Assembly (NCBI GenBank): GCA_947383215.1
Contig: CANDCP010000018.1
Span: forward strand, 1-52,230
Direction: 5' to 3'
Source of the DNA: an uncultured Roseburia sp.
GTDB taxonomy: Bacteria; Bacillota; Clostridia; Lachnospirales; Lachnospiraceae
Length of the DNA: 52,230 nucleotides
The translations under genes and the position numbers were made by a program. The notes beneath the pieces are model-generated. The model saw only the letters and a list, made by a program, of their open reading frames with translations. It ran no database searches and had not been told where the DNA came from. Shown piece by piece: positions 14,147-49,416 of the stretch (the stretch's first letter is position 1; every line of letters begins with the position of its first letter).

Positions 14147-14156
14147 GAGGAAAGAC

Positions 14157-15506: not shown

Positions 15507-15530
15507 AGCAGTTTTAGAGAGGGAGGATTT

Positions 15531-16447: not shown

Positions 16448-16470
16448 CAGGCGAAGCGGGATTGCGCAAC

Positions 16471-16486: not shown

Positions 16487-16503
16487 GTAGAGGGAGGAAA
16501 TAA

Positions 16504-17487: not shown

Positions 17488-17501
17488 AAAGGAGGGGCAG
17501 C

Positions 17502-26966: not shown

Positions 26967-26988
26967 CGTTGAGAGGGAAGCGGATAAA

Positions 26989-28989
26989 ATGAAGGTTGAA
27001 GAATTTAATGTTTTATATGCGATTCACAGACAACAGGGCGATATTGTTTTGGAACAGATTGCGCAGAGAACGGGATATGAAATAGGGCAGGTCGCAGAAA
27101 TTGTTGACGAGTTGAAGAAAAAGGACTGGTTAAACGGGGGAATTACAGAATCGGGATATGCCAGTCTGAATGAATATAAAGTAGATAACGCGATCATAAT
27201 GGCGGCGGGTTTTGGCTTGAGAAGTCTTCCTTTATCGCGCATTGTGCCAAAAGGCCTTTACGTCGTAAAAGGAGAGGCGCTGATCGAGCGGCAGATCAGG
27301 CAGCTTATGGAGGCCGGCATAAAGGAAATTATTGTCGTCGTAGGATATTTGAAAGAACAGTTTCAATACCTGAAAGAAAAATACGGCGTGATCATCGTTG
27401 AAAACGACGATTACTACCGCTACAACAATATATCTTCCATCTATGCGGCAAAGGATTATCTAAAAAACAGTTTTATCTGCTGTTCTGATAATTACTTTAA
27501 TATAAATGTCTTTGAAGAATACGTTTACGATTCTTATTATTCCTGTAAATATACGGAGGAATATGCGGAAGAATACTGCGTTACCGGAATGGACGGGGAC
27601 TACATATCGGAGATCCATAAGGGGGGAAGCAACGCCTGGTATACGATCGGAGAGGCATATTTTTCAAAGCGGTTCAGCAAAACATTTTTAAAATATCTGG
27701 AGTCGGAATACGCTTATCCGGAAACAAAGAGAATGCTTTGGGATGACTTTCATATCAGGCATATCGAGGAGCTTCCGATTCTGTTGGTAAAATATTCCGA
27801 CGATATTGTACAGGAATTTGATACCGTCGAGGATGTGATCGAGTTTGACCCAAAGTTTCGGCAGTACCGGGACAGGCTGTTAGAGGAGGATGCGAAAGCC
27901 GGAAGGCGGATGCCGGATATTTTTGTAAAATACGATGATGTTGAGCGCTATAATTCTGCCGTGACAGACCAGCATACGGGGCGTCTGCACTTAAACGAGA
28001 ATACGTTTGGACCAAGCCGAAGGTGTCTGGATGTATTAAAGGATGTCAAAATACAGGATTTGTATGAATATGATATGGCGACGAAAGATTTTCTGGTAGA
28101 AGAGATATCATCTGCGTTTTCTATTCCGGAGGATGATATCTATATTCATAACGGTTCCGCAGAGTTGATAAAGTCGGTCTTTTCGATTGCACTGGAGCGG
28201 GGCGATTGCGTTTTGGTATCGGATCCGGGCTGGAGTTATTATGCAAGCCTGGCAAAAGAGAAGTTTTGCGACGTCTATTGCTATGATGTTTTGAAGGACG
28301 ACTATACATATTATATGGACGTTGAGGATATTGTAAAAAAAGCGAAAAAATATCGTCCTAAAATTATCGTGATCACCAGTCCCCACAATCCTACCGGATG
28401 CAAAATGGACGGACAGGCGGTCGAAATGATTGTAAAAGAAAATCCGGAGTCGCTTGTGTTGCTGGATGAGGCATATTGGGGATTTTCGGAGGAAGATATA
28501 GACGTTCGAAGATTAGTAGAGACATATTCCAATATTATTATCTCAAGAACCTTTTCAAAGTATTACGGATTGGCGAATATGCGTGTCGGATACGGATTTT
28601 GCAACGCAAAGGTAAAGCATATTTTCGGTTTGGATTTGCCGCTGTTCAGGGAAAGCTCCATATCGCGAAGGATGGCGGTTGCGGCCATACACGACAAGGA
28701 CTATTACGAAGAAATGAATCAGGAATTAAACGAAGTGAAGACGTGGTTTATGGACGAGCTGAATAAGATTCCTTCTGTGCGCGCGTTTCAGTCATGTTCT
28801 AATTTTGTGGCGGTAAAGGCGGAGCATGCGGATATGCAGCGTGTGAAAGAAATATTAAAGGAGAACGGAATCTTAATCCGGTTATTTAATGACAAAGAGG
28901 AGCCGGTTGCCAGAATTGCAATATCGGATAGAGAGACGATGGAAAAGACGGTTCAGTTGATGAAAAGCTGTATAGAAGGAGAAAAATAA
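26989..28989 (+). CDS. Winged-helix + LicC-like nucleotidyltransferase + HisC-like aminotransferase fusion
   Basis: This 666-residue protein has three parts. Residues 1-62 look like a small winged helix ('LEQIAQRTGYEIGQVAEIVDELKKKDWL', 'ITESGYASL'). Residues about 67-310 are a sugar-nucleotidyltransferase-fold domain: 'AIIMAAGFGLRSLPLSRIVPKGLYVVKGEALIERQIRQLMEAGI', 'SFICCSDNYF' and 'RMLWDDFHI', as in LicC phosphocholine cytidylyltransferases. Residues about 331-660 are a fold-I PLP enzyme near HisC/CobD: 'LHLNENTFGPSRR', 'SPHNPTG', 'LLDEAYWGF' and the PLP Lys in 'SRTFSKYYGLANMRVGYGF' (about 524). It may make an amino-alcohol phosphate or similar by the C-terminal domain and activate it with CTP by the middle one, for LicD. 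The start at 26989 follows GAGAGGGAAG. Confidence 0.8.
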   Translation: MKVEEFNVLYAIHRQQGDIVLEQIAQRTGYEIGQVAEIVDELKKKDWLNGGITESGYASLNEYKVDNAIIMAAGFGLRSLPLSRIVPKGLYVVKGEALIERQIRQLMEAGIKEIIVVVGYLKEQFQYLKEKYGVIIVENDDYYRYNNISSIYAAKDYLKNSFICCSDNYFNINVFEEYVYDSYYSCKYTEEYAEEYCVTGMDGDYISEIHKGGSNAWYTIGEAYFSKRFSKTFLKYLESEYAYPETKRMLWDDFHIRHIEELPILLVKYSDDIVQEFDTVEDVIEFDPKFRQYRDRLLEEDAKAGRRMPDIFVKYDDVERYNSAVTDQHTGRLHLNENTFGPSRRCLDVLKDVKIQDLYEYDMATKDFLVEEISSAFSIPEDDIYIHNGSAELIKSVFSIALERGDCVLVSDPGWSYYASLAKEKFCDVYCYDVLKDDYTYYMDVEDIVKKAKKYRPKIIVITSPHNPTGCKMDGQAVEMIVKENPESLVLLDEAYWGFSEEDIDVRRLVETYSNIIISRTFSKYYGLANMRVGYGFCNAKVKHIFGLDLPLFRESSISRRMAVAAIHDKDYYEEMNQELNEVKTWFMDELNKIPSVRAFQSCSNFVAVKAEHADMQRVKEILKENGILIRLFNDKEEPVARIAISDRETMEKTVQLMKSCIEGEK

Positions 28990-28993: not shown

Positions 28994-30049
28994 ATGTTGA
29001 AAGTATTTGACGAATTCAGAGAACGGCTGGACCGCGTGATGATAAAGGCGTTTGGCCAGAGAGTGGCGCTGTGGGGGTACGGTTATACGGGGCGCTTTTT
29101 GGAGTGGTATGCCGAATATTATCACAGCATAGAGATGGATTTTGTCATCACGCAGGATTGGTCTGCAAGAATACCGTACCATTTTCCGCTGTTTCGGGAT
29201 ACCGTATTTGATTTTGATTATAAGGATATTAAGGATGCGATTGTGTGGCTGGCTATCCCGGAGGATGAGAGCGTACGGGAGAAGCTCCAGAAGGCGGGGT
29301 ATATAAAGAATAAAACGTATTTCAATTTTTTGGAAATTGTGTTTGGAGAAGGTTTCGTTTGTGAGGAACCGATAGAAGCGGACATTTTTGCAAAAAAGAA
29401 AACGGGGATACGGGATGTGCAGTTTATGGAATGGCTGGAGTATAAGTATGACTGCAATTTTGTTATGGCCATAGACCGTTCGGATTTTATAGATGAGATT
29501 AAGGGGGCGCATAACTATCGGCTGACTGCCCAAAAAGAAATCTTTCCGATTTTAGATCGGTGTCATTGTATTCCGGGGGAGCATGACGCGATTTTTGATT
29601 TTGGCTGTGGAAAGGGCGGAGCAATGATTTCGTTTCTGGACTACGGATTTCGGAATGTAGGAGGGGTAGAGTACGAGACAAAGATATACAAGGAATTGAT
29701 TTCCAATTTTCAAAAGCTGGGAATTAATTTGGAGGATAATAAAAACATTTCTTGTTTACATGGGGATGCGGCGGAGGTGAAAACGGAGCTGGACGCTTAC
29801 AATTGGTTTTATTATTTTGATCCGTTTGAAAAAGATATTTTTAGGAAAACAATCGAAAATATATGCGACAGTTTAAAGAGGAAGCCGAGAAGGGCCTATA
29901 TTATCAATATTAATCCTCAGTATCATGACATTGTCTTGGACAGCGGATATTTTGAATTGACGAATCAGTTTTGTATCGCCATGAGACAGAGAGTGGTAGA
30001 CGTTTTTATTACGAAAAGGGAATGTGAGGAATGTAAAGGTGCAATTTAA
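28994..30049 (+). CDS. Rossmann module + SAM-dependent methyltransferase
   Basis: This 351-residue protein has two parts. Residues about 20-115 are a Rossmann-like module ('VALWGYGYTGRFLEWYAEYYHSIEMDFVITQDW', 'DAIVWLAIPEDESVREKLQKAGY'). Residues about 130-350 are a class I methyltransferase: 'AIFDFGCGKGGAMISFLDYGFRNVGGVEYE' (SAM motif at about 200), 'CLHGDAAEVKTELDAYNWFYYFDPFEK'. The acceptor is unknown. The same type of N-terminal module is found in seven other proteins of the island. It starts 4 nt after the previous gene with AGAAGGAGAA upstream. Confidence 0.75.
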   Translation: MLKVFDEFRERLDRVMIKAFGQRVALWGYGYTGRFLEWYAEYYHSIEMDFVITQDWSARIPYHFPLFRDTVFDFDYKDIKDAIVWLAIPEDESVREKLQKAGYIKNKTYFNFLEIVFGEGFVCEEPIEADIFAKKKTGIRDVQFMEWLEYKYDCNFVMAIDRSDFIDEIKGAHNYRLTAQKEIFPILDRCHCIPGEHDAIFDFGCGKGGAMISFLDYGFRNVGGVEYETKIYKELISNFQKLGINLEDNKNISCLHGDAAEVKTELDAYNWFYYFDPFEKDIFRKTIENICDSLKRKPRRAYIININPQYHDIVLDSGYFELTNQFCIAMRQRVVDVFITKRECEECKGAI

Positions 30050-31124
30050 TTCTTTAGACGAATTTTTAAATGGCATAAAGGTTATAAGTGAAACCAATAA
30101 AATATATATCTGGGGAATCTGTGTATATGGGAATCTGTTGGGTAAGCTGCTGAATAAAAATCAAATATCCTGGAATGGATATTATGATAATTTTAACAGC
30201 GCCGACAAAGATCAATTGAATTTGAAACGCGTTTATAAAGGCGACGAGGTGAATCATTTTGAACATGCCTATTATATTTTGTCGATGCGGAATTATGAAG
30301 CTGTAAAAAAACAGCTGTTATCGGCGGGAGTAGATTCTGAACATATTATTTTCTTTGACAATGTAAAAATTTTAGACAGCATCGAAGAGAGATTGGACGG
30401 GTGTCCTGCGTCCGTGGGGCAGTTAAAGCGGCTTAACCGCGTACATAGCGGAGAGAGGTGTTTTATCATAGGAAACGGGCCGAGCTTGCGCGTTGAGGAT
30501 CTGGATGTTATTTATCATGCGAAAGCGGCGTCGTTTGCCTGCAATCGGATTTTCAGATGTTATGACAAATCGATGTGGAGGCCGGATTACTATTTTATTA
30601 CGGACGGCGTAGGAATAAGGGAAACGTTTCCGGATAAGGCGGTTTTGGATTTCGTATCGCAAAATTGTAAGTATATATTTAGCCGCAGCAACGGTGATTT
30701 GGCAAAGTATGCGAATGATATAGACAATCTGATTTTGTTTAAATATGTTTTTTCGGATTCTGAGGAGGAGTTTGATTTCTCTTCAGATTGCGCGGAAAAA
30801 GTATATATAGGACATACCGTGACGTATGTAATGCTGCAGATGGCGGTATATATGGGCTTTAAGGAGATATATCTTCTGGGGATGGATCACAATTTTTCAA
30901 TCGAGCATTGTGAAAATGGGGAAATTGCAAAAAACGCGGAGGTAGAAGATCATTCATCCATTTTAGGCAGCTATATGTGGGGGGTTGCAGATGGCATTAA
31001 GACGACGCGTACCTATGAAGCGGCAAAAAAATATGCAGATTCGCATGGAATCAAAATATATAACGCTACCCGCGGAGGGAAGTTAGAAGTATTCGAGCGG
31101 GTAGATTTTGATAAGTTATTTTAA
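30024..31124 (+). CDS. DUF115 protein with N-terminal Rossmann module (GT42/Maf-like glycosyltransferase candidate)
   Basis: This 366-residue protein has two parts. Residues about 22-110 are the Rossmann-like module ('IYIWGICVYGNLLGKLLNK'). Residues about 125-360 are DUF115: 'RCFIIGNGPSLRVEDLDVIYHAKAASFACNRIF', 'WRPDYYFITDG', 'VTYVMLQMAVYMGFKEIYLLGMDHNFS' and 'IKIYNATRGGKLEVFERVDFDKLF'. The order GNGPSL, CNxxF, then MGFKEIYLxGxD parallels GT42 sialyltransferases (CstII type), and the Maf flagellin transferases have a related core. A role transferring a CMP-activated ulosonic acid is inferred. It starts with GTG; GTG at 30039, preceded by GAGGA, is an equally good start. Confidence 0.75.
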   Translation: MRNVKVQFNSLDEFLNGIKVISETNKIYIWGICVYGNLLGKLLNKNQISWNGYYDNFNSADKDQLNLKRVYKGDEVNHFEHAYYILSMRNYEAVKKQLLSAGVDSEHIIFFDNVKILDSIEERLDGCPASVGQLKRLNRVHSGERCFIIGNGPSLRVEDLDVIYHAKAASFACNRIFRCYDKSMWRPDYYFITDGVGIRETFPDKAVLDFVSQNCKYIFSRSNGDLAKYANDIDNLILFKYVFSDSEEEFDFSSDCAEKVYIGHTVTYVMLQMAVYMGFKEIYLLGMDHNFSIEHCENGEIAKNAEVEDHSSILGSYMWGVADGIKTTRTYEAAKKYADSHGIKIYNATRGGKLEVFERVDFDKLF

Positions 31125-31181: not shown

Positions 31182-32201
31182 ATGAATAATTTGCAGGTAT
31201 TGGATTGTACATTGAGAGACGGCGCGCAGGTAAATGAGGCGAGATTTGGCGAGGAAGCGATTCGAAATATTATTGAAAATTTGACGCAGGCTAAATTGGA
31301 TATCATAGAGTGCGGGTTTTTGAAGGATTGTCAATTTGAACGCGGACGGACGTATTATCCGCAGCCGAGCTATGCCAGCCCGTATCTTCCGGAAAAAAAC
31401 GGGGACATCCTATATTCTGCGCTGGTAGATTATGGAAGATATGATGTCGATTCTCTGGAGCCTTATGATGGAAGCAGTTTTGATTTGATCCGGGTAAGCT
31501 TTTTTGAAAAGGATGTGGATCATGTAGGGGAATTTATACAGAAAGTCGCGCATAAGGGGTATCGCGTTTCGATACAGCCTATGGACACTTTTTCGTACAG
31601 TGAAGAGAATATTCAAAAAATTGTGAAGATGGCAAACGAAATTCAGCCGGAGGCATTGTCAATGGTCGACACATACTCGCTGGCGTCGGCCGTGGATATT
31701 GACAGAGTGTATGGCCTTTATGAAAAAAATCTCGATAAAAATATTAAAATCGGGTTTCATTCACACAATAACCAATTAAATTCGTTTGCGCTGGCACAGC
31801 ATTTTTTAGAGATAAGCGCGGGAGAGCGGAATCTGATTGTAGACGCCTCGCTGTATGGAATGGGAAGAGGCGGCGGAAATTTAAATACGGAGTTATTTAC
31901 GGAGTACTTAAACAGGCAGAATCTTAAGAGTTATCAGATGAAATATATTTTAGATCTGATTGACAATTATCTTGTAGAGTTCAAAAAGAAATTTGAGTGG
32001 GGATATTCCATGGATATGATGTATGCGGGGATCTACGGGGTACATGTATTTACAACCGCGTACTTAAAGAGCAAGCCGGGCGTTACGAGTTACGACTTAA
32101 AGTGTATGTTTGAAATGCTCGACGAGCATAAAAAGAAGCGGTATGACTACGATTATTTGGATTCTGTGTATGAGCAATATATGAAGAGTAAGGTGAAGTA
32201 G
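31182..32201 (+). CDS. DRE-TIM (HMG-CoA lyase-like) aldolase, copy 1
   Basis: This 339-residue protein belongs to the HMGL/DRE-TIM metallolyase superfamily. The N-terminal 'VLDCTLRDGAQVNEARFGEEAI' gives the Asp-Arg dyad and metal Asp. 'KIGFHSHNNQLNSFALAQHFLE' (about 187) gives the metal-binding His-x-His. 'DASLYGMGRGGGNLNTELF' closes the active site. It probably makes or breaks a C-C bond next to a 2-oxo acid. The next gene encodes an acylneuraminate-type cytidylyltransferase, so the product is probably a 2-ulosonic acid. A paralogue lies at 47757. The start at 31182 has GAAGGAG upstream. The earlier TTG at 31152 is less likely. The exact substrate is unknown. Confidence 0.8.
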   Translation: MNNLQVLDCTLRDGAQVNEARFGEEAIRNIIENLTQAKLDIIECGFLKDCQFERGRTYYPQPSYASPYLPEKNGDILYSALVDYGRYDVDSLEPYDGSSFDLIRVSFFEKDVDHVGEFIQKVAHKGYRVSIQPMDTFSYSEENIQKIVKMANEIQPEALSMVDTYSLASAVDIDRVYGLYEKNLDKNIKIGFHSHNNQLNSFALAQHFLEISAGERNLIVDASLYGMGRGGGNLNTELFTEYLNRQNLKSYQMKYILDLIDNYLVEFKKKFEWGYSMDMMYAGIYGVHVFTTAYLKSKPGVTSYDLKCMFEMLDEHKKKRYDYDYLDSVYEQYMKSKVK

Positions 32202-32202
32202 A

Positions 32203-32865
32203 ATGAAAAAAGTTGTTGCGTTAATTCCGATCAAACTGAACAATCAGAGGCTGCCGGGAAAAAATACGAAACCGCTGGGAGATAAAGTTCTGTGTCAATA
32301 TCTGTTTGATACGCTGCGGCAGGTTGAAATTATAGATGAAGCATACGTTTTTTGCAGCGATGATTCCATAAGGCAGTATATGCCGGATGAGATTCATTTT
32401 TTACAGAGGCCGAAACAGCTTGACACGGATAGCACAAAATCAAAAGATATCATTCAAAAGTTTATTGAGACGGTGGATTCGGATATCTACGCGTTAATGC
32501 ATGTCACACAGCCGTTTATTAAAGCCGGGACGATTGCGGATACGGTTTCTAAGGTAAAAGAGGAGGATTATGACTCGGCGTTTGTCGCGCATCAGATCCG
32601 GGAGTTTGCATGGTATGACGGAAAACCGATCAATTACAGCCTTACAAATGTTGTGCGCACGCAGGAGCTTGAGCCGGTATATGTGGAGGGCGAGCTTTTT
32701 GTGTTTGAGAAAAGCGTGTTTACCGAAAAGGGACGCAGAATCGGGGAACGACCATGGATTCAGCCGATTAGCTGGAAGGAAAGCATATGTATCGATGATA
32801 TGGAAGACTTTGAAATGGCGCAGGCCGTAGTGGAATTGGAGAAAAGAAATGAAAGATATAGTTAA
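32203..32865 (+). CDS. Acylneuraminate/ulosonate cytidylyltransferase-like, copy 1
   Basis: This 220-residue protein belongs to the NeuA/KdsB-type CMP-sugar synthetase family. The CTP-binding start is 'VVALIPIKLNNQRLPGKNTKPLGDKVLCQYLFDTL' (variant of the family's ARxxSKGxxxKN loop), with 'AYVFCSDDSIRQYM', 'DIYALMHVTQPFIKAGTI' and a C-terminal 'SICIDDMEDFEMAQA' metal-binding Asp. It would form a CMP-activated ulosonic acid, probably from the product of the aldolase gene that ends one base upstream. It overlaps the transketolase gene by 17 nt. A paralogue is at 48769. Confidence 0.82.
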   Translation: MKKVVALIPIKLNNQRLPGKNTKPLGDKVLCQYLFDTLRQVEIIDEAYVFCSDDSIRQYMPDEIHFLQRPKQLDTDSTKSKDIIQKFIETVDSDIYALMHVTQPFIKAGTIADTVSKVKEEDYDSAFVAHQIREFAWYDGKPINYSLTNVVRTQELEPVYVEGELFVFEKSVFTEKGRRIGERPWIQPISWKESICIDDMEDFEMAQAVVELEKRNERYS

Positions 32866-33679
32866 CGCTAATTTTGACGAGCTTCGTGTAACGGCAAACA
32901 GAAATCGCATTAAAATTCTCGATATGGTACACGGAGGGGCGTCCGGTCATATCGGGGGGGCTTTGTCAGCGGTAGATGTGATTACATATCTCGGGGAATG
33001 TGTCATTGATTATGGCGATAAGGAGCGCGACCGCTTCATTCTTTCGAAGGGACATGCGGTGACGGCGTTATATGCCGAGCTGCACGAGCTTGGATTTATA
33101 GAGGACGATGAATTAGTCACGTTTCGCAGGATTCATTCGAGGCTGCAGGGCCATACCAATCTTTTATATTTGCCGCAGACGGATTATACGTCGGGGCTGC
33201 TGGGACAGGGTCTATCCTACGGCGTCGGCATGGCGTTGGGGAAGAGGCTGAAAAAAAGCGCGGATACGGTTTACGTGATGATGGGAGACGGGGAGATGCA
33301 CGAGGGGCAGGTTTGGGAGGCGTTGATGGAGGCAAGTTATTACAGATTGGATAATCTTGTCCTTATCGTAGACCGAAACGGATTTTGTTCCCATCAGCCG
33401 GTAGAGAATGTGATCAGTATCGAGCCGTTAGCGGACAGGCTCGAGGCGTTCGGCTGGAATGTAAAAGAGATAGACGGACACAGCATGGAGCAGATACATT
33501 CCTGTTTGACGGGCTTGCGGTCACAGTACGGGAAGCCAAAATGCATTATATCCCATACGGTAAAGGGAAAGGGGATCAGCTTTATGGAGAATAACGGAAA
33601 ATGGCACCGAAGCATACCGACTGAAGAAGAATATCAACGGGCCAGAAAAGAATTGATTGAACGAGGAGGGGTGAACTGA
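32849..33679 (+). CDS. Split transketolase, N-terminal (ThDP-binding) subunit
   Basis: This 276-residue protein corresponds to the N-terminal third of transketolase. It has 'ILDMVHGGASGHIGGALSAVDVITYL' (His/Gly phosphate and substrate region), 'DRFILSKGHAVTALYAEL', and the ThDP diphosphate motif from 'MMGDGEMHEGQVWEAL' to 'DRN' (about 147-175, GDG...N). It is followed by 'KCIISHTVKGKGISFMENNGKWH'. With the next gene it would transfer a two-carbon ketol unit. Split transketolases are found both in central metabolism and in sugar-modification clusters; the setting favours the second here. It overlaps both neighbours. Confidence 0.9.
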   Translation: MKDIVNANFDELRVTANRNRIKILDMVHGGASGHIGGALSAVDVITYLGECVIDYGDKERDRFILSKGHAVTALYAELHELGFIEDDELVTFRRIHSRLQGHTNLLYLPQTDYTSGLLGQGLSYGVGMALGKRLKKSADTVYVMMGDGEMHEGQVWEALMEASYYRLDNLVLIVDRNGFCSHQPVENVISIEPLADRLEAFGWNVKEIDGHSMEQIHSCLTGLRSQYGKPKCIISHTVKGKGISFMENNGKWHRSIPTEEEYQRARKELIERGGVN

Positions 33680-34623
33680 TGGATCAGGAGCGCAGATGTA
33701 CAATCCCCAAGGATGCGATAGGTCCGACGCTGCTTGAGCTTGCGAAGGAGAACGATAAGATTGTGGTTATGTCAAGCGATGTTTCCGTATCCTGTAATAT
33801 AGAGATGTTTCATGAAAAGTGTCCCGACCGTTTTTTTGAGATGGGGATTTCCGAGCAGAGTACGATGAGCGCGTCCGGCGGTTTGGCGGCGGAAGGATTT
33901 ATTCCGGTCTATGTGGCGTTGGCCATTTTCTCGAACGGAATGACCTGGCCGCAGACCAGACAGGTTTGCAATGCAAACCTCAACGTTAAGATTATCGGAA
34001 CACATGCCGGCGTGGATGACGGTCAGGACGGGTCGGGCCATCACGCGACAGAGGATGTCGCAATTTCGAGGGCGCTTCCAAGGATGACGGTTTTGACGCC
34101 GTCGGATGAAAATGAGGTCAGAGCCGCCGTAAAGGCGATGGTTGAGTATGAGGGACCGGTTTACATGAGAGTCGCGCGTGAGCCGCAGCCGGTAATTCAT
34201 GAAAAAGAGTGTGAGTTTACGATCGGGAAGGCAGAATATTTGGGCGATGAGGGCGATGATTTTGCGATTGTTTTCGAAGGGACCGCATTAAAGCAGGCGC
34301 TTGAAGGCTGGGAGAAGTTAAAAAGTTTGGGGAAACGCGGGAAGTTAATTTCAATCAGATCCGTTAAGCCGTTGGATGTTTCGTGTATACGCGATATTGC
34401 GGCGAAGGTGAAGACTATCATTACAGTGGAAAATCATTCTGTCATAGGCGGGTTATACAGTGCGGTGTGCGAGTGTCTGGCGGAAAGAAAATATAAAGCG
34501 GTCGTGAAAGCCGTAGGATTTGGCGATGTGTTTGCGATGTCCGGAACGTCTGCTGAGATAAAGGAGACGTATCATGTATCCGGGCAGCGGATCTGTGAAG
34601 CCGCGCTGGAAGAGGACAGGTAA
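33679..34623 (+). CDS. Split transketolase, C-terminal (pyrimidine-binding) subunit
   Basis: This 314-residue protein contains the Pyr domain and C-terminal domain of transketolase/DXPS-like enzymes. It has 'TLLELAKENDKIVVMSSDVS', 'CPDRFFEMGISEQSTMSASGGLAAEGFIPVYVALAIF' with the Glu that activates ThDP (GISEQ), 'HAGVDDGQDGSGHHATEDVAISRALPRMTVLTPSDENEV', 'GPVYMRVAREPQP' and 'TVENHSVIGGLYSAVCE'. Its ATG overlaps the stop of the N-terminal subunit (TGATG), so the two are translated together. The probable role is in forming or extending a branched or higher-carbon sugar acid of the island. The acceptor is unknown. Confidence 0.9.
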   Translation: MDQERRCTIPKDAIGPTLLELAKENDKIVVMSSDVSVSCNIEMFHEKCPDRFFEMGISEQSTMSASGGLAAEGFIPVYVALAIFSNGMTWPQTRQVCNANLNVKIIGTHAGVDDGQDGSGHHATEDVAISRALPRMTVLTPSDENEVRAAVKAMVEYEGPVYMRVAREPQPVIHEKECEFTIGKAEYLGDEGDDFAIVFEGTALKQALEGWEKLKSLGKRGKLISIRSVKPLDVSCIRDIAAKVKTIITVENHSVIGGLYSAVCECLAERKYKAVVKAVGFGDVFAMSGTSAEIKETYHVSGQRICEAALEEDR

Positions 34624-34652: not shown

Positions 34653-35543
34653 ATGGAATGTAAATTGTGCAAAAGTAATCGGGTAAAAATATCGTACCAA
34701 GGTTTGATTCGAAACGGCGGCCTTGGCAAATATACAAACGATCCGGTGACAATGTGGCAGTGCGAGGACTGCGGCGTCATCTGGCATGAGAAGGTGATCG
34801 AAGATACAAAGCAATATTATCAAAGCAGGGAATACAGAAACTCCCTGGAGGGAAGCTCGGAGGAGGAAGTGTTTTACGCCCTTCATGACAGGGAAACATT
34901 TGATAAATTCCAGTATACGGGAACGGACATTTACCGGCATAAAACCGTGGCCGACATCGGGTGCGGGGCCGGCGCGTTTCTTGATTTTTTAAAGGGCGTT
35001 GCGAAGGATATCGTAGCGATCGAGCCGTCGGAAGCTTACAGGAAGAGTATGGACAAAAAAGGGTTTGCGACATATGCCTACGCAAAGGACGCGAAGACGG
35101 ATTGGAAAAACAAGGTCGATGTGATTACGTCCTTTGACGTGATCGAGCATGTGGATGATCCGAGAAAGTTTATGGAGGATGCGTTTGAGCTGCTGGCAGA
35201 AGGAGAAGGAAGGGCCGTAATCGGTACGCCGACCGACATGCCGATTATGAGGGGGCTTCTCGGCGAAATTTTTGAGAAAAAATTATTATTCAGCACGCAG
35301 CATATATGGGTATTCTCGGAAAAAAACCTCAGAATGCTGGCGGAGGAGGCCGGATTTAAGAAGATAGAAATAAAATATTTCCAGCGCTACGGGATTGGAA
35401 ATTTTTTGGGCTGGCTTAGGGAAAAAGAGCCGAAATCAGATATAAACGAAACATATATTACGGATACCTTAAACAGCGTATGGAAAAGCGAGTGCAATGC
35501 AAGGGCGCTGTCGGATTATATTGTGCTTTATGCGTATAAATAG
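34653..35543 (+). CDS. Zinc-ribbon class I SAM-dependent methyltransferase
   Basis: This 296-residue protein has an N-terminal four-Cys zinc ribbon ('CKLCKSNRV' and 'WQCEDCGVIWHE', residues 3-45). A class I methyltransferase follows, with 'VADIGCGAGAFLDFLKGVAKDIVAIEPSEAY' (SAM motif at about 93), 'DVITSFDVIEHVDDPRKFMEDAFELLAEG' and 'LFSTQHIWVFSEKNLRMLAEEAGF'. The zinc ribbon before the methyltransferase resembles sugar C-methyltransferases and related deoxysugar enzymes, so methylation of a sugar intermediate is likely. It follows the split transketolase by 29 nt. The acceptor atom is unknown. Confidence 0.8.
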   Translation: MECKLCKSNRVKISYQGLIRNGGLGKYTNDPVTMWQCEDCGVIWHEKVIEDTKQYYQSREYRNSLEGSSEEEVFYALHDRETFDKFQYTGTDIYRHKTVADIGCGAGAFLDFLKGVAKDIVAIEPSEAYRKSMDKKGFATYAYAKDAKTDWKNKVDVITSFDVIEHVDDPRKFMEDAFELLAEGEGRAVIGTPTDMPIMRGLLGEIFEKKLLFSTQHIWVFSEKNLRMLAEEAGFKKIEIKYFQRYGIGNFLGWLREKEPKSDINETYITDTLNSVWKSECNARALSDYIVLYAYK

Positions 35544-35560: not shown

Positions 35561-36040
35561 ATGGGAGCGAGAATAAAAGTGTTTGTCATGGATGTCGACG
35601 GAACGATGACGGACGGAAAAATATATATGGGACCTTCGGGGGAAGCGTTTAAAGTATTTGACATAAAGGACGGATATGGGATACATGAGATCTTGTCGAG
35701 AAGGCGCGTAAAGACGGCAATCATAACGGGAAGAGCCTCTGATATTGTAGAAAAGCGCGCAAAAGAGCTGGAGATTGATTATGTGCTTCAGGGTGTAAAA
35801 GATAAAAATTCGGCGATGCTTAATCTGGCGAAAGAATTGCAGTGCGAATTGTCGGAGGCCGCGTATATCGGGGACGATACGATGGATATCCCGGCGATGC
35901 GGCTGTGCGCGGTAAAAGGATGTCCGGCGGACGCAGTATCGGAGGTAAAAGAAATTTGCGATTACGTTTCAACCAGAAGCGGCGGAAACGGGGCGGTACG
36001 GGATTTTATAGAATGGCTGGTAAAAGAGGGCCTGATTTAG
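35561..36040 (+). CDS. KdsC-like HAD phosphatase
   Basis: This 159-residue HAD phosphatase of the C0 (cap-less) KdsC type has 'VFVMDVDGTMTDGKIYMG' (catalytic DxDGT at 9-13), 'FDIKDGYGIHEILSRRRVKTAIITGRASDIVEKRAKEL', and 'AAYIGDDTMDIPAM' (acidic metal loop). In the Kdo and NeuNAc routes this enzyme removes the phosphate from the ulosonate phosphate before CMP activation. Its place among ulosonate-type genes supports the same step here. The ribosome binding site is weak (AGAAAGAATATGGG). Confidence 0.88.
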   Translation: MGARIKVFVMDVDGTMTDGKIYMGPSGEAFKVFDIKDGYGIHEILSRRRVKTAIITGRASDIVEKRAKELEIDYVLQGVKDKNSAMLNLAKELQCELSEAAYIGDDTMDIPAMRLCAVKGCPADAVSEVKEICDYVSTRSGGNGAVRDFIEWLVKEGLI

Positions 36041-36068: not shown

Positions 36069-37193
36069 ATGGAATACACACAGACAGACATGTATATCAA
36101 GGCGGTACAGTCGTTGAAAGGAAATAAAATATATATCGTCGGCGCCGGGAAGTATGGTGAGGTTTTAGGGGAGTATTTTGATAAACATGGAATTTTATGG
36201 GAGGGCTATGTAGACAAGAGATTGGATTTGCGGTCAATTAACGGAAAAAAGGTCTATTCCTACGAAGAGGTGGGCGAGGGATATTATATTGTGTCTACAT
36301 ATTTGTATAGAAAAGAGATTGTGGAAGAGTTAGAAAAACGAAATATCATGCCGGACAAAATCATTTTGTATGATAAGCAGGATATTTTCTATGATATTTA
36401 CCATGATTTGACACGCTGGAAGGATTGTACGGAAAAAATAAAGGCGTTCCGTGAAAAACACAGAGGAGAAGAATGTTTTGTGATAGGGAACGGTCCCAGC
36501 CTTCAGATAAAAGATTTAGAGCGATTAGAGGGAACGGTCACGTTTGCCTCAAATTCCATCTATGCATTATATAAGCATACGAACTGGAGACCGACGTATT
36601 ATTGCGCGACGGATTCCATTTTTTGCAGGCAGATGATGTCAGAGAGAGAAGATATGACAATGCTGATGGACGGGTGTGAGGCGGCGTTTACGTCTATTAT
36701 GGGCGAAGGGATAAAATACCGGGACGACGCCGATATGGCGCGGTTATATTATATGCGGCTGTCGGGCGATATGGCCGGTAACGGGGAGGTAAAATTTTCC
36801 GCGGATTGCAGCGAGCGGATATACGCGGCCGGAACGATTACCTATGACATATTACAGTTAGCGGTTTATATGGGATTTAAGAAAATATATTTGCTTGGAA
36901 TAGACTTTAACTATTCAGTTGAACGTCATAGGGATCATACGGTTACCAATAAAGACGTATGCAATCATATGAAAGAGATTGAGGAGGAAGAAAAGCGGTT
37001 TTATGAGCCGATATCCAGGCGGCACGGCACGCCTTATATGGCGGATGTAGATTTGCAGCTTGCCGGTTACCGGGCGGCGAAAGAGTATGCGGATACGCAT
37101 GGCGTTGCGATATATAATGCAACGCGCGGCGGAAAATTGGAAGTATTTCCGAGAGTAGATTTTGACAGTTTGTTTGGTTCGATATCACAGTGA
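36069..37193 (+). CDS. DUF115 protein with N-terminal Rossmann module, copy 2
   Basis: This 374-residue paralogue of the gene at 30024 has an N-terminal Rossmann-like module ('IYIVGAGKYGEVLGEYFDKHGILWEGYVDK', about 17-105). The DUF115 core follows: 'ECFVIGNGPSLQIKDLERLEGTVTFASNSIYALY', 'WRPTYYCATDS', 'ITYDILQLAVYMGFKKIYLLGIDFNYS', ending 'VAIYNATRGGKLEVFPRVDFDSLF'. As for the first copy, the GNGPSL and MGFKxIYLLGxD motifs match the GT42/Maf pattern. A transferase using a CMP-ulosonate is inferred. It stands just before the pseudaminate-like genes. Confidence 0.75.
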   Translation: MEYTQTDMYIKAVQSLKGNKIYIVGAGKYGEVLGEYFDKHGILWEGYVDKRLDLRSINGKKVYSYEEVGEGYYIVSTYLYRKEIVEELEKRNIMPDKIILYDKQDIFYDIYHDLTRWKDCTEKIKAFREKHRGEECFVIGNGPSLQIKDLERLEGTVTFASNSIYALYKHTNWRPTYYCATDSIFCRQMMSEREDMTMLMDGCEAAFTSIMGEGIKYRDDADMARLYYMRLSGDMAGNGEVKFSADCSERIYAAGTITYDILQLAVYMGFKKIYLLGIDFNYSVERHRDHTVTNKDVCNHMKEIEEEEKRFYEPISRRHGTPYMADVDLQLAGYRAAKEYADTHGVAIYNATRGGKLEVFPRVDFDSLFGSISQ

Positions 37194-37211
37194 TTGAGCG
37201 AGGAAGATAAG

Positions 37212-38411: not shown

Positions 38412-38414
38412 CAG

Positions 38415-39191
38415 ATGAAGTTTTTAGCGATGATACAGGCCAGATGCGGTTCTTCAAGACTTCCGTCGAAGGTCTTAAAGGATCTTTGCGGGAAGACGGC
38501 TTTAGAGCGCGTGATAGAGCGCGTGAGAAGCAGCAGGCATGTGGACGAGGTGATGGTAGTAACCACACTGAACAGGGAAGATATTCCGATTATACAGTTG
38601 GTTTCCGGTATGGGAATTAGAGTTTTTGCGGGCAGCGCGACAGATGTGCTCGATCGGTATTACCAGGCGGCGAGGCTGATCCGGCCGGAATATGTAATCC
38701 GGATTACGGCGGATTGCCCGGTTTTTGACGCTAAGATACTGGACGATGCAATCGAAAAGCTGGAGCCGCAGACAGACTATATGGCGGCGCTTTCCGAGAC
38801 ATTGGCGGACGGGCTTGATTTGGAGATTATGCGTTTCGAGACATTAAAGCGCGCGTGGAGCGAGGCCAGGCTTGCGTCTGAGAGGGAGCACGTCACAATG
38901 TATATAAAAAATCATAAGGACTTGTTTCAGATTCAAAATTATGAGAGCACGCTTGGGAATCTCCATGAAGAGCGCTGGACGATCGACGAGCCGGAAGATT
39001 ATCTGTTTATAAAAAATATTTACGAACATTTTCAGACAGCGGGAAAAGAGGATTTTGATTCGAGGGATATTTTGCAGTACCTGAATGATAACCCTGAGGT
39101 TCGAAAGATCAACAGTGGGTTCATAAGGAACGAGGGGCTGTTAATTTCACTTAAAAACGATAGGATCGTAGAAAGACCGATTGAGGAGTAG
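38415..39191 (+). CDS. SpsF/PseF-like cytidylyltransferase
   Basis: This 258-residue CMP-nonulosonate synthetase-like protein of the SpsF family begins 'FLAMIQARCGSSRLPSKVLKDLCGKTALERVIERVRSS'. It has 'GSATDVLDRYYQAARLIRPEYVIRITADCPVFD' and 'ERWTIDEPEDYLFI'. In SpsF/PseF families this enzyme CTP-activates pseudaminic or similar acids. It is separated from the NeuB-like synthase at 41170 by two dehydrogenase-type genes. It is the third CMP-sugar synthetase-like gene in the window and belongs to a different subfamily from those at 32203 and 48769. Confidence 0.85.
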   Translation: MKFLAMIQARCGSSRLPSKVLKDLCGKTALERVIERVRSSRHVDEVMVVTTLNREDIPIIQLVSGMGIRVFAGSATDVLDRYYQAARLIRPEYVIRITADCPVFDAKILDDAIEKLEPQTDYMAALSETLADGLDLEIMRFETLKRAWSEARLASEREHVTMYIKNHKDLFQIQNYESTLGNLHEERWTIDEPEDYLFIKNIYEHFQTAGKEDFDSRDILQYLNDNPEVRKINSGFIRNEGLLISLKNDRIVERPIEE

Positions 39192-39195
39192 AAAT

Positions 39196-40194: not shown

Positions 40195-40239
40195 AAAAAT
40201 TGTCGTATGCGAATGCATCCGGGAGGGGGGATAAAAACA

Positions 40240-41142: not shown

Positions 41143-41169
41143 ATAGTTTCCGGGTAAGGAGGGAGCGGC

Positions 41170-46171: not shown

Positions 46172-47764
46172 ATGTTTATACAGAATGCCGATAAAAAAAT
46201 TGTTTATTGGGGGATTGGATTTATTTGTAAACTCTGTTTGGAGCAATATTATAACATACAGCCCGTTTTGTTTATTGATTCTCGTTCCGAACGTGATTTT
46301 TTCCACGGAAAGCCGGTAAAGCGTCCCGACGAAATCGAAGATTGGTCTTCCTATTACATTATTATCACGATTAAATCGGACGACGCGCTGGAGCATATTC
46401 GAGGCATATTAAAAGCAAAAGGGTTAAAAGAGGGGCGGGATTTCGGCTCTTATAAGGATGTTTTTGAGTGCAGCGTACCGTCTGTCCGGGAAAGTGTAAA
46501 TTTGCTTGGAAATTTTATGAATAAGCATACGGAGGCGGCCAATCCGATTATGCTGTTGCTGCCGTTTGAGATTATACGCGACAGTATAAATTTTGAATCG
46601 TTTATCTCAAGTTACATACGGGCAAGAAAGCCCACAGAGTGCCTGTTTTTTTCTTCTCTTTACGTGTTATCCGAGCAGGAAGCGTCTCTTCGGTTTGGCT
46701 GTCCGGTGTTTTGCCTTCCGGATCTGTCTGATGGAAAAACAGAGGACGGGGGGCGGCTAGAGAAGCTGTCGGATGAAGAGCGCGGCTGGATAAGGGAGAT
46801 GGAAGGGAGAAAGCGCTCATCGGATCAGGAAAAATCCATTGAAGAATCTGAGGCGTGGTATCGTTATTTTAAAACCGTCTTAGAGATTGTCCGCCCGTCG
46901 AAGATTATCTACTGGGGAAACTGGAGCAGAGAGAGTTACATACTGGGACATCTGGCCGGTATGTGCGGCGTGCCGTATGGATATATGGAGCACGGCTGGC
47001 TTCCGGGAACGTACCAGGTTGACCCGAGAGGGATTATGGGACAGAGCGAGTATGCCGTAAACCCCCGGATGTTTGACGCGGTGGCGGTGGATGCGGTTTA
47101 CGAGGTGGAGCGGATCAAAGCCTATATAAAAGAACGGAAATTAGACACCAGGGTCTTTGTGGAAACCGCTGAGGATAACGCGGCGCTTGCGGGCGTCGAT
47201 AAAACGAAGAAAACCGTTTTTTTGGTGGGGATGGACGATCATGGGATGGAGATGAACCCCGATTGCGAGTATTGGAAAACGTATATTTCCGGCGTTGTCA
47301 GATCCACGGAGGAGGCGTTGCTTGCGCTGGCTGCCGTCTGTGAGAAAAGGAACTGGAACCTGATTTTTAAGCCGCATCCGGGCAATCCCGCTCCGGAAAT
47401 TGCCGGCTGTAAAGAGCGCGTAACCTTCGTCCGTGAGACGGAAATCGACCGTCTGATTAAGATGGCAGACGTGGTGGTCAGCATCTGCTCGGCGGTCGAC
47501 TATAAGACGCTGATTTACGGCAAGCCGCTTGTCCAATTGGGGATCAACGGGCTTTTGGGAAAAGGCTGCTCTTACATTGTCGGCGAAGCCGCAGAACTGG
47601 AAGACCAGCTCGCGTTAGCGTTAAAAGAGGGGATGACGGGAAGGCAAAAGGAAAATTTTGACCGTCTGCTTCAGATTTTACTGCAAAGGTATCTCTGGGA
47701 TGACCGGTCCGAGAGGACGCTGCGGTATGGATTGACGGTAGAAAGGGATTTTATAGATGGATAA
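46172..47764 (+). CDS. Rossmann module + KpsC/KpsS-like capsule glycosyltransferase
   Basis: This 530-residue protein has an N-terminal Rossmann-like module (about 8-100: 'IVYWGIGFICKLCLEQYYNIQPVLFIDSR', 'SYYIIITIKSDDALEHI'). The rest is GT-B like: 'IIYWGNWSRESYILGHLAGMCGVPYGYMEHGWLPGTYQVD', 'KTVFLVGMDDHGMEM', 'NLIFKPHPGNPAPEI', 'IKMADVVVSICSAVDYKTLIYGKPLVQLG'. The HGWLPGT, KPHP and S-CSxxDYKTLxYGKP motifs resemble KpsC/KpsS capsule enzymes, whose members use CMP-Kdo. It could use a CMP-ulosonate from the neighbouring synthetase genes. SD AGGAGGAATTGC is strong. The exact family is uncertain. Confidence 0.7.
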   Translation: MFIQNADKKIVYWGIGFICKLCLEQYYNIQPVLFIDSRSERDFFHGKPVKRPDEIEDWSSYYIIITIKSDDALEHIRGILKAKGLKEGRDFGSYKDVFECSVPSVRESVNLLGNFMNKHTEAANPIMLLLPFEIIRDSINFESFISSYIRARKPTECLFFSSLYVLSEQEASLRFGCPVFCLPDLSDGKTEDGGRLEKLSDEERGWIREMEGRKRSSDQEKSIEESEAWYRYFKTVLEIVRPSKIIYWGNWSRESYILGHLAGMCGVPYGYMEHGWLPGTYQVDPRGIMGQSEYAVNPRMFDAVAVDAVYEVERIKAYIKERKLDTRVFVETAEDNAALAGVDKTKKTVFLVGMDDHGMEMNPDCEYWKTYISGVVRSTEEALLALAAVCEKRNWNLIFKPHPGNPAPEIAGCKERVTFVRETEIDRLIKMADVVVSICSAVDYKTLIYGKPLVQLGINGLLGKGCSYIVGEAAELEDQLALALKEGMTGRQKENFDRLLQILLQRYLWDDRSERTLRYGLTVERDFIDG

Positions 47765-48767
47765 ATATAATATATTAGATTGTACGCTTCGGGACGGCGG
47801 ATATATTAATAAGTGGAAGTTTCATGACGAGGCGATCTCGGATATCATAGAAAGGCTGATAAACGCGGGGCTGGATTTTGTCGAGGTCGGATATCTGAAC
47901 AATGCGGGGGCCGTGTGCGACACGACGCAGTTTCTGACGGTTCCGCAGATCAGACAATATCTGCCGAAGCAGAGGGGCAGCTGCATTCTGCTGGCAATGG
48001 CAGACGTGCAGCAATATAGGCCGGAGGATCTTACGCCGTGCACCGGGGACTCCATAGACGGGATACGCGTCGTGTTTTATAAGCGTCAGGTGGAAGAGGC
48101 GATGGTTCTTGCGAGGGCGGTGATTGAAAACGGTTACCGGCTGTTTATGCAGCCGATGGTTACCATCGACTATACGATAGACGAGTATGCCGCGCTGGTA
48201 AAACGGATTGCGGAGTTAAAGCCGTATGCCGTTTCCATCGTCGACAGCTTCGGCTATATGATAAAAGAGGACTTCCGGCGGTATTTTAAAGTGCTCGACA
48301 ATATTTTGCTGCCGGAAACGATGATTGGGTTTCATTCCCATAACAATATGAACCTTGCGTTCCTCACGGCGCAGGATTTGTTAGAATACAGCACGAACAG
48401 GCGTCTTATCATCGATTCGTCCCTGTACGGAATGGGCCGCGGGGCCGGGAACTTAAATACGGAGCTGATCACGAATTACTACAATATGGTGCTCGGGCAG
48501 AAATACGATGTGAATCAGATCTTATATTTAATCAGCCGCTATATCATGCCGATCTATCAGGAGCGGCAGTGGGGATATTCGCCGTATCTGTTTATCACCG
48601 GACTGTACCACTATCATCCGAATTATGCGTGTTATCTGTTGGAGGATTATGACGTGACCGTGTCAGAGTTCGAGAAATTTATCCATACGGTTCCGGAGGA
48701 GATGAAAACAAAGTGCCGGAAGGAGTATGTGATAGAGATGTATAGAAAGTATAAGGGAAGCTTATAG
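47757..48767 (+). CDS. DRE-TIM (HMG-CoA lyase-like) aldolase, copy 2
   Basis: This 336-residue paralogue of the gene at 31182 has 'NILDCTLRDGGYINKWKFHDEAI' at the N-terminus, 'MIGFHSHNNMNLAFLTAQDLLEY' (metal His-x-His, about 188) and 'IDSSLYGMGRGAGNLNTELI'. The C-terminal part, 'QWGYSPYLFITGLYHYHPNYACYLL', differs enough to suggest another substrate. As in the first copy, it is followed at once by a cytidylyltransferase gene (1 nt after the stop). It probably makes the ulosonate that is then CMP-activated. It overlaps the KpsC/S-like gene by 8 nt. Confidence 0.8.
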   Translation: MDKYNILDCTLRDGGYINKWKFHDEAISDIIERLINAGLDFVEVGYLNNAGAVCDTTQFLTVPQIRQYLPKQRGSCILLAMADVQQYRPEDLTPCTGDSIDGIRVVFYKRQVEEAMVLARAVIENGYRLFMQPMVTIDYTIDEYAALVKRIAELKPYAVSIVDSFGYMIKEDFRRYFKVLDNILLPETMIGFHSHNNMNLAFLTAQDLLEYSTNRRLIIDSSLYGMGRGAGNLNTELITNYYNMVLGQKYDVNQILYLISRYIMPIYQERQWGYSPYLFITGLYHYHPNYACYLLEDYDVTVSEFEKFIHTVPEEMKTKCRKEYVIEMYRKYKGSL

Positions 48768-48768
48768 T

Positions 48769-49416
48769 ATGGAAAAGATCATTGCAATTATGCCGATAAA
48801 ATTACAAAATGAACGTCTTCCGGGAAAAAATACAAAGCTTTTGGGGGGGAAACCGCTGCTGCAATATGAATTGGAATCGCTGCTGCAGATCAAAGAGCTT
48901 GCGGGCGTCTATGTTTACTGCAGCGACGAAGAGATCTGCAAGTATCTGCCGCAGGGCGCGTCGTTTGTCAAAAGGCCGGGGGAGCTGGATCTTGCGACGT
49001 CTAATTTTACACAGATCTTCTCCAGCTTTATGAGGGAAAAGGACGCGGATATTTATGTATACGCCCATGCTACGGCCCCTTACGTAAAGGTGGAGACAAT
49101 GCGGGAATGTATCGAGGCCGTGCGGTCCGGGGAGCACGATTCCGCGTTCTGCGCGGAAAAAATCCAGGACTACTTATGGGAGGACGGCGCGCCGCTAAAC
49201 TTTGACGCGTCCAATCTTCCGAGAAGTCAGGATTTAGGCGTGATTTACCGGGAGACGTCCGGGATCTATGTCTTCCGAAAAGAAGTGTTTATGAAATACA
49301 AAAGAAGGATCGGTGCGAATCCTTTTATAAAGGAGGTATCTTTTCGGGAACGGATTGATATTAATGGTCCCGAGGATTTTTCTCTGGCGGAAGCTTTTTT
49401 GAATATGGACTGTTAA
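48769..49416 (+). CDS. Acylneuraminate/ulosonate cytidylyltransferase-like, copy 2
   Basis: This 215-residue paralogue of the gene at 32203 has 'IIAIMPIKLQNERLPGKNTKLLGGKPLLQYELESLL' (CTP loop), 'VYVYCSDEEICKYLPQG', 'DADIYVYAHATAPYVKVETM' and 'RIDINGPEDFSLAEAFL'. It is coupled to the aldolase gene at 47757. Together the two pairs (31182/32203 and 47757/48769) repeat the same operon unit 16.6 kb apart within one island. Confidence 0.82.
   Translation: MEKIIAIMPIKLQNERLPGKNTKLLGGKPLLQYELESLLQIKELAGVYVYCSDEEICKYLPQGASFVKRPGELDLATSNFTQIFSSFMREKDADIYVYAHATAPYVKVETMRECIEAVRSGEHDSAFCAEKIQDYLWEDGAPLNFDASNLPRSQDLGVIYRETSGIYVFRKEVFMKYKRRIGANPFIKEVSFRERIDINGPEDFSLAEAFLNMDC

Follow-up and report, generated by a model that had tools for sequence, protein, structure and literature searches.

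The gut bacterium from which this DNA derives, judged by its gene content, probably makes a sialic-acid-like surface sugar by using a pyruvate aldolase rather than a PEP-dependent enzyme. The window (the whole stretch of 52,230 nucleotides that was analyzed) contains two genes, ALD1 and ALD2, for candidate metal-dependent pyruvate aldolases, placed in a DRE-TIM family branch that would be dedicated to glycans. We put at roughly 0.62 the probability that these enzymes replace the NeuB/KdsA step in the synthesis of a CMP-ulosonic acid and that the transketolase (TK) encoded in the same operon as ALD1 is a diverged extra copy, most likely supplying or trimming the aldose phosphate acceptor. In the proposed route, pyruvate as its enolate would add to the aldehyde of a sugar, with an aldose phosphate as the probable acceptor, to give a 4-hydroxy-2-oxo acid, which would be a 3-deoxy-2-ulosonic acid or its phosphate. 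A KdsC-like phosphatase would remove the phosphate, the cytidylyltransferase CMP1 would use CTP to activate the acid, and its transfer onto a surface glycan would fall to an MptE/GT42-like enzyme, so that the whole route would be a PEP-independent stand-in for the NeuB/KdsA step. No description of an aldolase-CMP pathway was found in the open-licence literature, a scope outside which most subscription papers fall; within it, the statement of an earlier note that no characterized pathway is known to join the three enzyme types still stood.

Gene content of the window

The aldolase-CMP-TK module occupies positions 31182 to 34623, and it and all of the genes described below with individual coordinates lie on the forward strand. 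ALD1 (31182..32201), which starts with an ATG at 31182 and could also start with a TTG at 31152 in the open frame, encodes a DRE-TIM (HMGL/DmpG-type) pyruvate-aldolase-like enzyme (HMGL-like, 75 bits; Pfam cut-off, 29) proposed to form the ulosonic acid. It is followed after a 1-nt gap by CMP1 (32203..32865), encoding an acylneuraminate/PseF-type cytidylyltransferase (PF02348, CTP_transf_3, 57 bits; cut-off, 22.6) that matches PpNeuA (9t4z, 8e-8) among solved structures and is the candidate for CMP activation. CMP1 overlaps by 17 nt the gene for the thiamine-binding half of a split, putatively accessory transketolase (TK-N, 32849..33679; PF00456, Transketolase_N, 140 bits; cut-off, 22), which in turn overlaps by 1 nt the gene for the pyrimidine-binding and C-terminal half (TK-C, 33679..34623; PF02779, Transket_pyr, 111 bits, and PF02780, Transketolase_C, 67 bits; cut-offs, 27 and 25.9). 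The positions of these four genes and their tight packing are as the earlier note gave them.

Downstream lies a gene for an S-adenosylmethionine (SAM) methyltransferase (34653..35543; PF13489, Methyltransf_23, 82 bits; cut-off, 27), which possibly methylates the sugar and has homologues near the aldolase in loci L073, L110, and L128. It had been called a zinc-ribbon methyltransferase; the second word stands, and the first corresponds to two N-terminal CxxC pairs in the reading frame, without profile support. The Pfam matches of all of these ORFs, from the aldolase to the methyltransferase, exceed the gathering score. The next gene encodes a HAD phosphatase (35561..36040) that passes the TIGR01670 cut-off for the KdsC subfamily (142 bits versus 106.95), as its earlier description as KdsC-like implied, and that would act on the ulosonic acid phosphate. 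The module is flanked by two genes for MptE-like proteins (30024..31124 and 36069..37193), both matching PF01973 and of the same Maf/GT42-related fold class, the first being a candidate CMP-sugar transferase.

CMP1 scores under the NCBIfam cut-offs for PseF (48 versus 205.7) and for Kdo cytidylyltransferases (at most 30.6 versus at least 193), and the phosphatase scores under the equivalog cut-offs for KdsC (151 versus 208) and KDN-9-P phosphatase (132 versus 180). No close relative of CMP1 was found in eight genomes of the genus Roseburia, and its best match outside its own genome had an E value of 9e-15 and 22% identity.

A second ALD-CMP pair, absent from the earlier sequence-only note, is located at 47757-49416. 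It consists of ALD2 (47757..48767; PF00682, 60 bits), 36% identical to ALD1, and, after a 1-nt gap, CMP2 (48769..49416; PF02348, 74 bits), 40% identical to CMP1. The ORF directly upstream of ALD2 (46172..47764) has weak capsule-synthesis similarity (PF05159, 17.7 bits, under the cut-off of 20) and possibly encodes a ulosonate transferase. The window also includes a PseB/DegT-class/CMP/NeuB set at 37194-42246 and hence a PEP-type nonulosonate gene, the distance from NeuB being 9 kb to ALD1 and 5.5 kb to ALD2. Neither this set nor the two MptE-like proteins had been pointed out in the earlier note.

Association of aldolases with cytidylyltransferases

The link between the aldolase and CMP-type cytidylyltransferases is real and general. 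In 80 genomes of the host's family, the Lachnospiraceae, a cytidylyltransferase lies within 1 kb of 39 of the 90 aldolase genes (chance, about 0.08). On contigs classed as viral, the two enzymes are encoded in one ORF in 39 of 61 loci. A KdsC-like HAD phosphatase is near the aldolase in 27 of 57 CMP loci versus none of 28 loci with only a TPP enzyme, and MptE-like genes are near it in 16 of 57 CMP loci versus none of 29 TPP loci; the 57 are a lower bound, as L053 and L073, at the least, lost their cytidylyltransferases from the count. Herbinix (L080) also has a CMP-ALD pair, with no gene labeled as a phosphatase in the stretch around it. These loci derive from a set of 98 aldolase genes kept by gene calling and labels from 100 loci plus the two window genes, a count that lost L032, L034, L056, and L079 and includes at least one duplicate pair (L035, L112). 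L049 and L050 were left out of the aldolase tree.

The aldolase and the PEP-dependent enzymes exclude each other. Among 144 cytidylyltransferase genes, 54 have NeuB or KdsA within 5 kb, 40 have the aldolase within 5 kb, and none has both; NeuB or an above-cut-off KdsA is thus found within 5 kb of 0 of the 40 aldolase-linked cytidylyltransferases. At 10 kb, four cytidylyltransferases are near both, three of them in this window. Three of the 83 rows in the NeuB list, which were weak and DAHP-synthase-like and appeared at the same places below the cut-off in the KdsA list, were dropped before this count. The adjacency in other genomes, the mutual exclusion, the shared ORFs, and the co-occurring phosphatases support the earlier suggestion that the aldolase is paired with the cytidylyltransferase and takes the usual place of NeuB/KdsA.

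The aldolase is carried by 95 of 397 Lachnospiraceae genomes, and relatives occur in records, many of them metagenome assembled, labeled Bacteroidota, Spirochaetota, Synergistota, Campylobacterota, Pseudomonadota, and Melainabacteria. Two further matches were set aside as evidence, one in Salmonella that sits in a catabolic cluster and one in Priestia that sits in no glycan locus.

The same aldolase family has a second context, consisting of CDP-dideoxysugar genes and a YerE-like enzyme. An acetolactate-synthase-class TPP enzyme is encoded within 5 kb of 29 of the 98 counted aldolase genes, only 1 of which also has a CMP-type cytidylyltransferase nearby; the 28 TPP-only loci include a glucose-1-phosphate cytidylyltransferase-type gene in 13 cases and a DegT-cluster gene in 14. 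For ErwE, which belongs to the YerE-like class, the reported substrates are 4-hydroxy-2-oxo acids, the type of compound expected as the ALD product. A broader reading, which we offer tentatively and hold less probable than the one above, is that a large family of pyruvate aldolases, spread across phyla and dedicated to glycans, supplies 4-hydroxy-2-oxo acids both for CMP activation, which would give sialic-acid/Kdo-like sugars independently of PEP, and for the YerE-like decarboxylating transfer that leads to long-branched CDP-sugars; the TK in the window would then be dedicated to making an unusual aldose phosphate acceptor, and the CMP-ulosonic acid would be an undescribed sugar.

The split transketolase

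The closest solved chains to TK-N and TK-C are 6yak (1.3e-66) and 6yaj (2e-61), respectively, both from split TKs. The idea that a split transketolase is unusual in itself was rejected: a match to the N-terminal half at an E value of 1e-45 or below is present in 306 of 397 genomes of the host's family, and every row among the matches listed in the survey of split TKs in that family is a half-size open frame. TK-C has the motif GQDG where three other TKs of the family have GEDG. Another split TK is encoded on contig C23 of the same genome, and the window copy is only 43% and 38% identical to it, a divergence that fits a dedicated role.

A TK lies near the aldolase for 6 of the 98 counted genes and for 2 of the 90 in the host-family sample, and aldolase, CMP, and TK genes occur together only in this window in both sets. 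The TK is therefore not part of the conserved module, and the copy studied here looks like a rare local extra. A search for co-occurring HMGL-like, NeuA-like, and split-transketolase genes, which the earlier note had proposed, found that the first two recur widely and that the trio does not, and the view of the transketolase as an integral part of the pathway was not sustained. The host-family count used 12 TK rows chosen by eye as sharing contigs with the aldolase, 4 of which (G000 C23, G384 C5, and G164 C8 and C1) are actually on aldolase-free contigs. No aldolase or cytidylyltransferase was found in the 1.5-kb flanks of the 29 best other split-TK loci (L197-L225).

These counts, together with the ordinariness of split TKs in the family, leave some weight for the possibility that the transketolase is an unrelated copy that entered the operon by chance and that ALD1, CMP1, and the phosphatase form the functional unit. 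We consider this less likely than not, as the overlaps on both sides of TK-N, the recurrence of ALD-TK pairs in several phyla, and the divergence from the other TK of the genome argue against it.

The ALD-TK neighbors are found in L047, L048, L074, L081, L087, a Desulfobaculum plasmid, and the viral-classed L141, and they bear on a different scheme, in which the TK would give a keto-sugar a hydroxyacetyl (C2) branch, the aldolase would extend or modify this branch, and CMP1 would activate the resulting branched ulosonic acid. L047 contains RfbH and a TPP enzyme, L074 and L087 contain a TPP enzyme, and the plasmid contains rfbH; in L081 the TPP enzyme is farther away (5.6 kb), and L048 has a gene assigned only as far as the DegT family. 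According to a review (PMC12247030), addition of such a branch has been proposed for the split TKs of miharamycin and amipurimycin; the review calls this TK function untested. No RfbH-type match was found beside the module in the ORFs scanned. The TK trees leave the window TK unplaced, with long branches and support of 95/46 and 75/6 for its grouping with L074, L081, and L087 (L047, L048, L141, and one L192 copy were left out of the TK-C tree). The scheme is accordingly given little credence here.

Aldolase fold and active site

The best match to ALD1 in both structure and sequence is PDB 3dxi, the putative aldolase BVU_2661 of Bacteroides vulgatus, after which the predicted fold is nearest to the DmpG-type aldolases. 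R12, D13, H193, and H195 are kept in 45 of 45 aligned aldolase rows and line up with DmpG, in which they form the Arg-Asp and two-His metal/pyruvate site; H288, Tyr127, and Tyr275 are likewise invariant. In DmpG the His after the Arg-Asp motif is catalytic, and the corresponding position is Gln in ALD1, Tyr in 36 of the 45 rows, and Arg in 8.

Most ALD relatives carry a C-terminal domain in addition to the 3dxi-like part, L128 and L051 being examples of loci with such a fusion. That this extension of about 200 residues might be a cytidylyltransferase was rejected, as no match of that kind came up by BLAST in the genome loci. Comparison of profiles linked the extension to MptE-like proteins, among them the 30024 protein (probability, 74), and a fold search returned Maf, CstII, and HPPK, indicating a Maf/GT42-type fold; phmmer against the PDB gave no match up to an E value of 1. 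CstII has a conserved catalytic His, and no alignment column of the fused domain has His in at least 20 of the 45 rows.

The Pfam family of ALD1 is HMGL-like, and profiles for isopropylmalate and homocitrate synthases match the aldolase weakly, so a Claisen-type enzyme resembling HMG-CoA lyase or isopropylmalate synthase might instead make a hydroxy acid that decorates the glycan, with CMP1 using NeuB-made acids from elsewhere, such as from the NeuB in the window. This is improbable in view of the DmpG-like fold, the lack of NeuB/KdsA within 5 kb of any of the 40 aldolase-linked cytidylyltransferases, the shared ORFs on viral-classed contigs, and the co-occurring KdsC-like phosphatases. That the aldolase cleaves a ulosonic acid instead of forming one is very improbable: DmpG-type aldolases, its best-known fold relatives, work in the cleavage direction in catabolism, but the genes of this family sit near those for cytidylyltransferases, glycosyltransferases, and the biosynthesis of CDP-sugars, and no acylating aldehyde dehydrogenase, the partner of DmpG, was found among the window ORFs scanned.

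Comparison with known pathways

Genome surveys usually score producers of sialic-acid-like sugars or Kdo by the presence of NeuB or KdsA. If the aldolase replaces that step, such surveys would overlook a large number of producers, both in the gut and in other habitats, given its frequency in the host's family and its relatives in other phyla. It would also provide a testable source of hydroxylated 2-oxo acids for ErwE-type enzymes.

In the CMP-nonulosonate and CMP-Kdo pathways (NeuB-NeuA, PseI-PseF, and KdsA-KdsC-KdsB), a 3-deoxy-2-ulosonic acid is formed, dephosphorylated by a KdsC-type HAD enzyme, and activated with CTP; the same phosphatase and cytidylyltransferase families are found here, whereas the condensing gene encodes a DRE-TIM pyruvate-aldolase-like protein. 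ALD1 shares its predicted fold, its putative metal ligands, and its putative pyruvate Arg with DmpG/BphI (4-hydroxy-2-oxovalerate aldolase). It differs in scoring under both NCBIfam cut-offs for that enzyme (67 and 80 bits versus 286 and 229), in the replaced catalytic His, in having no partner dehydrogenase among the scanned ORFs, and in its biosynthetic context. The title of the 3dxi entry describes the N-terminal domain of a putative aldolase and gives no function for BVU_2661. The resemblance to the yersiniose and erwiniose pathways (YerE/ErwE) lies in the loci where the same aldolase family is near an acetolactate-synthase-class TPP enzyme; no such enzyme was found among the window ORFs scanned. 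The split TK of Carboxydothermus hydrogenoformans (6yaj, 6yak) is the nearest solved relative of both transketolase halves, from which the window TK differs in being a diverged second copy situated in a glycan operon.

Gene content of the locus

All four open reading frames of the module were recovered at the positions originally reported, encoding the HMGL/DmpG-type aldolase ALD1 (31182-32201), the acylneuraminate-type cytidylyltransferase CMP1 (32203-32865), and the transketolase halves TK-N (32849-33679) and TK-C (33679-34623), and each product scored above the curated Pfam cut-off for its named family. ALD1 and CMP1 are separated by a 1-nt gap, CMP1 overlaps TK-N by 17 nt, and TK-N overlaps TK-C by 1 nt. 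The KdsC-like phosphatase downstream (35561-36040) passed the KdsC-subfamily cut-off. The earlier note had missed the two MptE-like proteins flanking the module and a second pair in the same locus, ALD2 (47757-48767) and CMP2 (48769-49416), that has no transketolase. It had also missed a row at 37194-42246 encoding a PseB-type dehydratase (534 bits versus a cut-off of 408), a DegT-class aminotransferase (under the equivalog cut-offs), a third cytidylyltransferase, and a NeuB-family synthase; the strain therefore also has a PEP-type gene.

The window is the entire contig C18 of its genome. Cobalamin synthesis genes make up most of its first 21 kb, and the glycan locus occupies everything from approximately 24 kb onward. 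Several fusions occur among the genes for cobalamin biosynthesis and cobalt transport (1805-20685), such as CbiJ with a tetrapyrrole methylase and a CbiA-type amidotransferase with CbiC. Between these genes and the glycan locus is an 846-residue open reading frame (21502-24042) with no Pfam match at an E value of ≤0.05. The glycan locus itself includes a Gfo/Idh/MocA oxidoreductase fused to a cytidylyltransferase-like domain (24039-25379) and an unusual gene of the head-group type that adjoins a LicD gene and combines a nucleotidyltransferase domain with a class I/II aminotransferase (26956-28989); its product has an N-terminal match to a winged-helix model just under the cut-off.

Aldolases and PEP-dependent synthases in Lachnospiraceae

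The aldolase was present at an E value of ≤1e-40 in 95 of 397 Lachnospiraceae genomes, 80 of which, with 90 aldolase genes, were sampled for co-occurrence. A same-strand CTP_transf_3 gene lay no more than 1 kb from 39/90 aldolase genes (37/88 without the window's own genome), compared with approximately 0.08 expected by chance if 3.0-Mb genomes are assumed. A transketolase was found within 10 kb of only two of the 90, in the window and in genome G021, and all three gene types occurred together only in the window. The earlier note had joined the three and held that rarity of the combination elsewhere would count against it; by this standard the aldolase-cytidylyltransferase pairing stands, but the inclusion of the transketolase is refuted.

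The same 80 genomes contained 144 cytidylyltransferase genes, of which 54 had NeuB or an above-cut-off KdsA within 5 kb, 40 had the aldolase within that distance, 50 had neither, and none had both (hypergeometric P of 9e-11, with genes treated as independent). At 10 kb, four genes were near both, three of them in the window. Among the 25 strongest CTP_transf_3 rows, 22 had the aldolase within 10 kb, two had NeuB or KdsA, and one had neither; KdsA was absent at its cut-off from 22 of these 25 genomes and exceeded it in only 3/80 overall. The neighbors of the cytidylyltransferases thus fit the pattern of an aldolase standing in for NeuB/KdsA. This replacement pattern supports, at the level of gene neighborhoods, the proposal that a ulosonic acid may be formed by a route other than PEP-dependent condensation.

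The best match among solved structures for both TK-N and TK-C was a split transketolase (6yak/6yaj). The window transketolase is 43% and 38% identical to the other split transketolase of its genome and carries the motif GQDG, versus GEDG in that second copy and at loci L197 and L204; the motif at this position is lost in the aldolase-adjacent transketolases of loci L074, L081, and L087. In trees, the window copy grouped with these last three, but the branches were long and the grouping was unsupported (N half, 95/46; C half, 75/6). The enzyme is taken as dedicated but locally acquired and, most simply, would supply an aldose phosphate acceptor; this assignment is the least secure element of the model.

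Two genomic contexts of the aldolase

A wider genome scan (alignment A1) confirmed 570 places, the best 80 of which came from Lachnospiraceae and other Bacillota, Prevotella, Treponema/Spirochaetia, Synergistales, Gastranaerophilales, Helicobacter, and others. Adding 20 longer stretches taken from relatives, together with the window, gave 102 aldolase genes, of which 98 were counted; partners were scored if they lay on the same strand no more than 5 kb away. A cytidylyltransferase was near 57 of the 98, an acetolactate-synthase-class TPP enzyme was near 29, both were near one (L078), and neither was near 13. A KdsC-like phosphatase accompanied 27/57 aldolase genes of the cytidylyltransferase class, 0/29 of the TPP class, and 5/13 of the neither class, and an MptE-like gene accompanied 16/57 of the cytidylyltransferase class versus 0/29 of the TPP class; a transketolase was near 6/98. 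The two contexts tracked a quick aldolase tree, requiring 3 changes when only these states were counted, and all four context labels required 12, versus 34.8 in shuffles. A sialyltransferase-type cluster (representative matching PF07388, with PF07922 under its cut-off) occurred in five cytidylyltransferase loci and three neither-class loci (L101, L105, and L109), the latter having a cytidylyltransferase more than 5 kb away. A Leisingera plasmid carried a consecutive aldolase, annotated Kdo cytidylyltransferase, and HAD gene, and a Desulfobaculum plasmid (L192) carried consecutive rfbH, both transketolase halves, and the aldolase. A second pair of transketolase-like fragments (12294-13335) lies approximately 2.3 kb downstream of the latter row.

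For each of glucose-1-phosphate cytidylyltransferase, CDP-glucose 4,6-dehydratase, and RfbH, one representative from the TPP context scored above the NCBIfam cut-off. Genes of the first type occurred in 13/28 TPP-only loci and a DegT cluster in 14/28; L043 had a dTDP-glucose dehydratase in place of the CDP-glucose type. The aldolase was found with an acetolactate-synthase-like TPP enzyme at L031 (5356-7158) and in cluster-4 loci (e.g., L038, L042, L060, and L074), many with CDP-dideoxyhexose genes. The best solved match to the TPP enzyme was 8rph (3e-119), and we infer that it is YerE-like. The aldolase-TPP clusters of gut Bacillota, Treponema, and Synergistales are candidate long-branched CDP-sugar pathways.

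Among IMG/VR sequences, 61 loci had an aldolase relative, and in 39 of these (28 distinct sequences) a single open reading frame matched both aldolase and cytidylyltransferase, an arrangement not seen at any of the genome loci examined (the best 80 of 570 places). These loci fall within L142 to L191 (e.g., L148, 4989-6692), on contigs of up to 270 kb that are classed as viral by the database. The cytidylyltransferase parts are mostly KdsB-like, that of L148 exceeding a KdsB-subfamily cut-off (269 versus 255), and the order of the two parts is reversed in L144. The L148 protein had nine matches to named phage records, none covering at least 80% of the protein. Of the viral-classed contigs, L152 had glycosyltransferases and nucleotide-sugar genes close by, and L156 had IMPDH and glutamyl-tRNA reductase.

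Proposed pathway

In the proposed mechanism, a pyruvate enolate at the metal site of ALD1 would attack a sugar aldehyde to give a 4-hydroxy-2-oxo acid, and the free acid would then be activated by CMP1. The presence of the phosphatase downstream suggests that the acceptor carries a phosphate. According to portions of a review (PMC12247030), ErwE couples a hydroxylated 2-oxo acid to CDP-4-keto-3,6-dideoxyglucose to form erwiniose, with a preference for chains such as 4-hydroxy-2-oxobutanoate, -pentanoate, or -hexanoate. By analogy with these reported substrates, the TPP/CDP-sugar context independently supports the predicted product class, and a single product type could therefore account for both contexts of the aldolase. 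No description of this pathway was found in searches of an open-licence literature library. The aldolase falls short of the DmpG cut-offs and does not have the catalytic-His feature, yet it is predicted to work as DmpG does. Likewise, the pathway differs from the known CMP-ulosonate pathways in the PEP-synthase feature, yet it would operate as they do.
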